NCBI GenBank assembly: GCA_021818955.1
Contig: JAKASR010000012.1
Coordinates: 1 to 64,000 of the forward strand
Reading direction: 5' to 3'
DNA from: Acidobacteriota bacterium
GTDB lineage: Bacteria > Acidobacteriota > Terriglobia > Terriglobales > SCQP01
DNA: 64,000 bases
Made by a program: the position numbers and the translations under genes. Of this stretch, positions 270-60,531 are shown piece after piece. The stretch's first letter is position 1. Each line of letters opens with the position of its first letter. Below the pieces are notes generated by a model, which was not told the DNA's origin, searched no databases, and was given only the letters and a program-made list of their open reading frames with translations.

Positions 270-376
270 AGTGACAGTTGGTGACAGTTGGTGACAATTG
301 AAAAACATTCAATTGTCACCAACTAAATTATTGAATTTAATGGAATTAATCCGGATGGTGACAGTAGTGACAATTG
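270..376. repeat. Short-repeat array 1: three direct repeats, inverted copy, AT-rich spacer, distal copies
   Basis: Three head-to-tail 10-mers lie at 271-280, 281-290 and 291-300 (GTGACAGTTG twice, then GTGACAATTG). A 16-bp perfect inverted repeat follows: GTTGGTGACAATTGAA at 287-302 and its complement at 308-323, with a 5-nt loop. After 34 bp of AT-rich DNA two more direct copies occur (358-366 and 367-376). There is no T-tract after the hairpin, so it does not look like an ordinary terminator. The layout is the same as at 60385-60481, although the repeat word differs. Iteron-like protein-binding sites or an element-borne replication/recombination site are possible roles; this is inference. 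The 252-568 gap otherwise holds the dispersed element at 441-482 and the DUF1810 promoter. Confidence 0.85.
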
Positions 377-440: not shown

Positions 441-482
441 TTGCGAAAGCGTCAGCGCCTAAAAGTAAAAGCGGCCGAGCCG
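441..482 (+). repeat. 42-bp dispersed element, copy 1
   Basis: The core begins TTGCGAAAGCGTCAGCGCC and ends AAAAGCGGCCGAGCCG. It is identical over 42 bp to 7227-7268 and closely related to copies at 27979-28022, 45802-45844, 48003-48040 and 55911-55952, all in this orientation. It lies 86 bp before the DUF1810 start codon. No UUCG hairpin precedes this copy. Confidence 0.85.
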
Positions 483-534
483 TTTTCAACCAACTGCAAG
501 GCGCAGCCGCGCTTCCTTCATCGGGCAGATGCCG

Positions 535-50712: not shown

Positions 50713-50920
50713 GTCGCAATTCTTCCTTAATTGACCATGATCATTTTTTACTTTCGCCCAATGGACAGCGTAAAAAGCGGATGATAAGTGATGAAGTGAC
50801 TGGGTGGCAAGATAATGTCGTGCTTATTTTGGGGGTGGGAGGGTGCGCGGGCGCAGCCTTGTGGTAAATTCTTTACAGGAGTTTACCCGGCTTGCCCGTG
50901 TGTGGATTGTAGCCGGTCAT

Positions 50921-50986
50921 TTTGAGTCATTGCGAGATCTATCAATTTGAGTCATTGCGAGATCTATCAATTGCGAGATCTATCAA
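50921..50986. repeat. 25-bp tandem repeats upstream of the TonB receptor gene
   Basis: A 25-bp unit (TTTGAGTCATTGCGAGATCT then ATCAA) occurs twice head to tail at 50921-50945 and 50946-50970; its last 16 bp occur a third time at 50971-50986. Each copy holds the palindrome AGATCT. The array ends 42 bp before the receptor ATG and could be a cooperative regulator site. The rest of the 316-bp gap (50713-51028) shows no gene and no clear promoter; AGGAGAG before the ATG is the receptor's ribosome-binding site. Confidence 0.85.
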
Positions 50987-55769: not shown

Positions 55770-55854
55770 GCAATTCCGCAGGAATTGCGCCAAGCAAGCC
55801 GGCAATTCCGCAGGAATTGCGCCAAGCAAGCCGGTAATTCCGCAGGAATTGCGC
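55770..55854. repeat. 32-bp tandem repeats, each with a 19-bp palindrome
   Basis: Two identical 32-bp units (55770-55801 and 55802-55833) and a 21-bp third copy (55834-55854, one change) stand head to tail. Each contains GCAATTCC-GCA-GGAATTGC, a perfect 8-bp inverted repeat with a 3-nt centre. There are no unique spacers, so it is not a CRISPR array. The 55647-55998 gap also holds dispersed element copy 6 and no gene. Confidence 0.9.
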
Positions 55855-55873
55855 CCGGCAATGCCCGGCAGCC

Positions 55874-60189: not shown

Positions 60190-60396
60190 TTATAAAAGAA
60201 TTGATTGGCCTTGGACAGTCCGCGTCTGGATGCCGCTGGCCAGATGCTTAGCGAATTTCTTATCCGATGTGACGATCGTCAAGCCTTCCATTTGTGCTTG
60301 CGCTATCAGCAGGCGATCCAAGGCAGCGCGATGGTGAGAGGGCAAACGGTGCGCCGCCAGGTGGAAGTATGCCCAGGGCTGACGAGATGGCGGCAA
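60190..60396 (-). pseudogene. Truncated PIN-domain toxin (C-terminal part only)
   Basis: About 60 residues match the C-terminal half of PIN toxins: LPSHHRAALDRLLIAQAQ, GLTIVTSDKKFAKHL with two of the acidic residues. The N-terminal half, which should carry the first Asp and Glu, is absent: upstream the frame runs directly into short-repeat array 2 (TTGCCGCCAT units). No antitoxin gene is present. A TTG could start translation but would give an inactive product. The break at the array points to a recombination or insertion event there. Confidence 0.7.
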
Positions 60397-60481
60397 GATG
60401 GCGGCAAGATGGCGGCAAAAATCAATTTGCCGCCATTCGTAAATTGCTCTTATTAAACTATTTAGCTGGCTGATGGCGGCA
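60385..60481. repeat. Short-repeat array 2: three direct repeats, inverted copy, AT-rich spacer, distal copy
   Basis: AGATGGCGGCA occurs three times head to tail (60385-60395, 60396-60406, 60407-60417). ATGGCGGCAAA at 60409-60419 pairs perfectly with TTTGCCGCCAT at 60426-60436 across a 6-nt loop. After 35 bp of AT-rich DNA a further direct copy lies at 60472-60481. The plan and even the spacer length equal those of the array at 270-376, with an unrelated word. It truncates the PIN toxin remnant and ends 50 bp from fadA. No terminator-like T-run follows the stem. Confidence 0.88.
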
Positions 60482-60531
60482 ATGCAACCAATTTGAAAAA
60501 ATTTCCGGGGTCGGGCTGGTTGGCTGGCGTT

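Follow-up and report, generated by a model that had tools for sequence, protein, structure and literature searches.

Two repeat arrays of one layout lie in the window analyzed here (64,000 nucleotides of an Acidobacteriota bacterium, contig JAKASR010000012.1, hereafter C13), and we consider it very likely that each represents an iteron-type replication origin for a hexameric helicase of the SF3/D5 type (Rep). The original prediction had placed a primase-like gene beside the arrays and offered iterons of an element-specific initiator as one reading, and this reading is well supported: an iteron-type origin is the most likely identity of the arrays because, among 14 genomes, they occur in exactly those that have the rep gene family, because most rep genes adjoin an array, because plasmid homologs of the gene have the same plan, and because the protein has a predicted fold like that of SaPI5 Rep, with a winged helix. 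Under this explanation, held with the same high confidence as a whole, array 1 (270-376) would serve as origin for the rep gene with its tail at 3-251, and array 2 (from 60385) would belong to a set of solo origins, units of about 110-130 bp that carry no gene.

Array 1 begins with three direct copies of the word GTGACARTTG on the forward strand at 271-280, 281-290 and 291-300 (GTGACAGTTG, GTGACAGTTG and GTGACAATTG; period 10 nt). Perfect inverted arms of 17 nt (286-302 and 308-324) enclose a gap of 5 nt, the second arm carrying the inverted iteron copy on the reverse strand. These are followed by an AT-rich spacer with the core common to the family (325-355, placed by alignment), which is a candidate DNA-unwinding element, by two forward-strand direct copies at 356-376, a degenerate GGTGACAGTA (356-365) and an exact GTGACAATTG (367-376), and by an AT-rich right tail (377-391) that ends in TTTTTCC and whose final bases are common to dispersed near-identical copies. 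Upstream, positions 3-251 of the forward strand encode the C-terminal 83 amino acids of an SF3/D5-type AAA+ initiator-helicase (Rep-like), truncated by the contig edge and including the winged-helix part, as judged from the translation and from homology to full-length relatives. Array 2 has no rep gene nearby. It consists of three forward-strand copies of ATGGCGGCAA starting at 60387, 60398 and 60409 (60387-60418; period 11 nt), perfect inverted arms of 11 nt (60409-60419 and 60426-60436) around a gap of 6 nt, with the inverted iteron on the reverse strand at 60426-60436, an AT-rich spacer core of 36 nt (60437-60472), a forward direct copy (60473-60482) followed by a degenerate one, and a right tail, TGCAACCAATTTGAAAAAATTT (60483-60504), common to its relatives. 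The predicted repeats, inverted copies, spacers and direct copies were thus all found in place.

Both arrays are real and exceed chance expectation. We scanned 1.24 Mb of the genome that contains the window for a word with a tandem copy within 8-15 nt and an exact inverted copy after 3-10 nt, and obtained 13 matches, 11 of which belong to the array family; five first-order shuffles gave 1, 0, 0, 0 and 2 matches. The expectation that such layouts would be more frequent than in shuffled sequence therefore holds.

The arrays are members of a dispersed family. By DNA similarity within the same genome, array 1 has three close copies with unrelated flanks (89-95% identity over approximately 124 nt) and one diverged copy, and array 2 has seven relatives. 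A DNA similarity search is too narrow because the words change, and we therefore built a covariance model, R1, from 8 array copies. R1 identified about 27 full-length copies in the genome of the window (G000, 3.8 Mb; E < 0.05), about 31 matches in a congener (G003; E < 0.01), and 2 and 4 matches in a pair of genomes from a second genus, with zero arrays in the other ten of 14 genomes of the same family. When 299 genomes of the class were searched under stricter filters, R1 matched G000 only and none of the 298 others; arrays of this form that carry these words are therefore confined to the lineage. All of these genomes are metagenome-assembled, and all array copies in their contigs were taken as chromosomal.

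The repeat words had been described as unrelated in the original prediction. They instead form a graded series around RTGRMRGYAA (GTGACAATTG, GTGACGGCAA, ATGACAGCAT, GTGGAAGTAA, ATGGCGGCAA and GTGGCGGCAA), and the spacers have a common core, TAA...TTGAA.TTAAA...TTAA; AT content over the family is 73% in the core versus 38% in the flanks. Word changes are common to all copies within an array, an observation that we count as new: word identity is 0.94/0.85/0.89 within the same element versus 0.69/0.67/0.75 between elements (0/2000 permutations). Additionally, some arrays are composed of two parts. At L154:2076-2171, L157:1501-1596 and L204:8759-8854, for example, the direct copies before the hairpin gap have a word other than that of the inverted and right-hand copies, and the array of contig C1 in G003 likewise changes its word across the gap. 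These chimeric arrays suggest that half-origins may recombine at the hairpin gap.

Clustering of the reading frames around the arrays revealed one recurrent gene family, which is that of the "primase-like" gene of the window. The rep family is present in the same four of the 14 genomes as the arrays and in no other; leftover matches of the rep search (E about 1e-4) share a Walker-A motif and lie nearly all in frames of approximately 800-820 amino acids. No Pfam or NCBIfam model matched the rep proteins above its cut-off. In an AlphaFold2 model of the protein from contig C77 of G003 (pLDDT 81) the C-terminal end is a winged helix, and the best solved relatives found by Foldseek are the African swine fever PrimPol (AsfvPrimPol), SaPI5 Rep (7ola) and the helicase region of NrS-1. 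An SF3/D5 AAA+ helicase core with a C-terminal DNA-binding domain is therefore present as a predicted fold. In other phyla, some proteins of the family are Prim-Pol fusions. Prim-Pol (PF09250) was found in none of G000, G003 and G007, the last of which is half-complete, and G008 encodes one on another contig. Among pattern-matched candidates we confirmed 417 rep loci in many phyla and also in Archaea, which points to a very widespread, uncharacterized helicase family that appears to be tied to iteron origins with a recognizable conserved plan.

At most rep genes an array lies directly 3' of the stop codon, each with its own word. In G000 these words are GTGGCGGCAAG (C43), GTGACAATTG (C13, the window), GTGACATCW (C7) and GTGGAAGTA (C21); in G003 they are CTGTAGGCAA (C1), GGGTGCCGTTT (C77, a textbook layout) and GGTCATCT (C40); and in the second genus they are CGGGTGCCGGG (G007 C85 and G008 C72), GCGCGTAGG (G008 C116) and ATGACGATA (G008 C85). 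The arrays of C45, C31 and G008 C10 are less regular, and at five rep genes a downstream array was not clearly seen. Arrays occur in both orientations relative to rep. Sequence common to the mobile rep unit of G000 C43 and C23 begins about 165 bp 5' of the annotated start, with unrelated flanks, and up to the array the unit contains rep and array alone.

Pairs of rep genes in G000 point to an exchange of specificity. Over 237 nt the C43 rep has a single mismatch to the fragment on C21, after which identity falls abruptly to roughly half, near the start of the recognition helix and wing in the model (the winged-helix segment); despite the near-identical rep bodies, the array words are GTGGCGGCAAG and GTGGAAGTA. 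Similarly, contig C9 breaks off within a rep body, its last 127 nt start both C13 and C7 with 0 mismatches, and past these 127 nt the two rep tails diverge and lead to the words GTGACAATTG and GTGACATCW. A second copy of the upstream rep body is found on C26. The C9/C13/C7 and C23/C21 joins were read from assembly overlaps or inferred. Two rep pairs therefore appear to combine nearly identical bodies with different recognition tails and words, which we count as new. Conversely, the orthologous pair G007 C85 and G008 C72 has an identical word and a C-terminus that is 62% identical. Among the 10 reps whose words are known (45 pairs, of more distant relationship), C-terminal identity does not correlate with word similarity (rho -0.02), and the proposed specificity code therefore has its support in the two swap pairs and in the orthologous pair that shares a word. 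Natural pairs with the same helicase body and a different tail and word would make the splitting of initiator-origin specificities (incompatibility groups) directly testable.

A possible mechanism can be outlined from these features. The winged helix of Rep would read the array word, and several Rep subunits would load on the tandem and inverted iterons. The loaded Rep may then melt the AT-rich spacer of 30-36 nt and unwind outward, with priming presumably performed by host enzymes, as a Prim-Pol gene was not found in the genome of the window or in the congener. Solo units of approximately 110-130 bp would be copied around the chromosome without the gene.

Other features were observed in the neighborhoods of the arrays. 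A remnant of the C-terminal part of a PIN-domain toxin gene (60190-60378, reverse strand; PF01850 at E=9.4e-5, which falls slightly short of the curated cut-off) abuts array 2. The original prediction had drawn attention to this toxin, and we rejected it as a part of the system: it is one chance neighbor, and the other PIN gene (1260-1637) is separate and intact-looking. The latter belongs to a VapBC-like antitoxin/PIN toxin pair; a DUF1810 gene and then this pair (together 569-1637) directly follow the rep-origin unit of the window. A RES toxin/Xre-MbcA antitoxin pair (L158:6561-7956) borders the C43 rep-origin unit on its left, and DUF1156 methyltransferase-like and DUF499 ATPase-like genes, possibly of defense, adjoin the C21 array (L159:8625-15030). 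Dense degenerate 7-nt tandem repeats (CTCTGCG/CTTTGTG) are located just 5' of the C9 and C26 rep copies (L200:8930-9330 and L217:412-828). A REP-like repeat (GGCCGAGYCG and AGCGTTAAnGGCCGAG) is found in G000 at a density of about one per 6 kb (for example window 470-485, L054:13300-13500, L132 and L134); it lies within approximately 250 bp of 10 of 26 arrays versus 8% of random 600-bp windows, intergenic bias being uncontrolled in this comparison. The window also contains short near-perfect tandem repeats at 50917-50986 and 55770-55855, with units of 25/16 and 32 nt.

The link to primase-like genes proposed in the original prediction stands insofar as the rep family is found beside arrays, and falls short insofar as most copies are not adjacent to rep. 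No rep similarity was detected within 1.5 kb of 40 of 46 array loci, and among the six with a match, two (L132 and L140) gave weak ones that low complexity may explain; most arrays therefore cannot be simple rep-linked origins. Nor is a cognate rep visible for the GTGGCGGCAAT solo copies of the congener. At the sites orthologous to those of array 2 and the C12 copy, the congener has no array. Four other genomes that have rep-linked arrays show tandem words on one to three contigs each, not dispersed by the dozen, and the literature that we searched contains nothing comparable to a chromosome-wide scattering of such origins. On the basis of their sequence most copies are probably solo origins, which we count as new. 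This raises the question of the role of dozens of plasmid-type origins within a bacterial chromosome. One tentative answer, which we regard as possible and not as probable, sees in the solo arrays a new type of non-autonomous mobile element. A naked origin, about 120 bp long, would be spread through the chromosome in trans by the initiator helicase together with host replication and repair, without a transposase, and rep-origin pairs would split into new specificities by a joint swap of winged-helix tail and word.

It is also conceivable, if unlikely, that the solo arrays serve as decoys. By titration or handcuffing of Rep they would exclude any incoming or resident element that has their word, an incompatibility acting in defense or copy control, and this role would be compatible with their being origins. 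Iteron replicons are known to be blocked by extra iterons, and for three types in G000 the solo words equal those of resident reps. However, the solo units retain the AT-rich spacer and the right tail, which are unnecessary for titration, their near-identical dispersed copies look mobile rather than selected, and some solo words have no resident rep.

The mobile appearance of the solo arrays could alternatively be that of a MITE-like element moved by an unrelated transposase that binds the iterons, the link to rep being secondary. Units of 110-130 bp with sharp ends, unrelated flanks and 89-95% identity would fit such an element, as would the empty orthologous sites in the congener. The ends, however, are not inverted repeats, since the right-end words point in the same direction as the left-end words; target duplication was not seen in the flank comparison, the empty sites of the congener being too diverged to define ends; the rep family is the only one that recurs beside arrays, with no transposase family doing so; and the pairing of rep and array reaches to plasmids. 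The terminal inverted repeats and target duplications of MITEs and insertion sequences are thus lacking, and we hold this explanation to be improbable. Transposon ends, including Tn7/CAST-like, IS607 and RAYT types, were rejected on the same observations of non-inverted right-end words, absent target duplication and no recurrent transposase.

A function of the hairpin as RNA (attenuator, terminator or small RNA) is very improbable. Double changes are found at all 10 of its 10 pairs, in an alignment that was fitted to the hairpin and so leans towards it. Nevertheless, the mismatches comprise 11 G.T versus 17 A.C, and the lack of preference for G.T points to a DNA site and not an RNA stem; the non-pairing direct copies change together with the hairpin, the arrays occur in both orientations relative to rep, and there is no Rfam match. 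Recombinase attachment sites (a core inverted repeat with arm sites), which the original prediction had also offered, are scarcely credible: a layout in which inverted words flank a short gap and further direct words are present does resemble an integrase site, but the gap varies in length within the family and so allows no fixed overlap, and no recombinase, integrases included, recurs beside the arrays.

The preferred explanation, that the arrays are iteron-type origins of Rep, can be compared with known systems. REP/BIME and MITE-type repeats are likewise short, dispersed and present in many copies, whereas the acidobacterial arrays are distinguished by their iteron layout, by word variation that extends over the whole element, and by a link to a helicase instead of a RAYT or DDE transposase. 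The C-terminal domain of SaPI Rep recognizes the iterons of an origin that directly follows the rep gene, and the same downstream-iteron recognition has been shown for Cch2 (PMC7581432). The acidobacterial proteins resemble SaPI Rep and SCC Cch/Cch2 in the helicase fold (7ola being among the best matches), in the C-terminal DNA-binding domain and in the origin just after the gene; they differ in sequence (13% identity) and in that no primase domain is recognized in them, and their loci do not appear to lie on a recognized phage satellite and include many solo copies.

The rep family itself is encoded on plasmids of Streptomyces, Actinacidiphila, Methylobacterium, Stanieria, Chlorohelix and Methanothrix. 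In S. melanogenes the array 3' of the gene consists of four direct copies of GGTGACGCRG, one inverted copy, about 38 nt, two direct copies and ATTTCC; the same order is found downstream of the gene in S. cellulosae, pFP12, S. alfalfae and Chlorohelix, and a looser version in pFP11, pSTS2, Actinacidiphila and pFRL5. Downstream iterons were not seen on the large linear Streptomyces plasmids L230 and L239 or on the Stanieria and Methanothrix plasmids. Across phyla, an 8-mer occurs at least four times in the 400 bp just downstream at 12 of 76 rep-family loci versus 19 of 1397 other windows. A strict layout scan gave 8 matches downstream of 78 rep-family genes versus 11 in eleven times more sequence elsewhere, and the full plan is therefore not universal in the family.

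The plasmids pFP1, pFP11 and pWTY27 replicate from rep and iteron loci, and their Rep proteins bind the iterons (PMC3583192); we infer that the gene adjoining the pFP11 iterons is the rep of that study. The original prediction knew of no described family with this plan, and the pFP11-type rep and iteron replicons have it. Plasmid reps differ in that they usually adjoin a Prim-Pol gene, a partner that is common in plasmids though not shown to be universal, and that was found in neither of the two acidobacterial genomes of the genus. Solo-origin dispersal on the acidobacterial scale is a further difference, not seen in the four other genomes checked. A homologous rep beside the array is a feature of the rep-linked arrays, including array 1, and not of the solo arrays, including the one at 60385, and solo copies match only the sequence features of an iteron replicon. 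The rep-linked copies appear, from their sequences, to have the testable core features of iteron theta origins, the Prim-Pol partner excepted. Like the pFP11/pFP12/pWTY27-type Streptomyces theta replicons, they combine a homologous ATP-binding rep (pFP11, pFP12) with an iteron array directly downstream and in the same order, in which short direct repeats at approximately helical spacing are joined by inverted copies and an AT-rich segment, and the arrays of S. melanogenes and S. cellulosae share with the acidobacterial ones both a GGTGACGCAG-type word and the ATTTCC tail.
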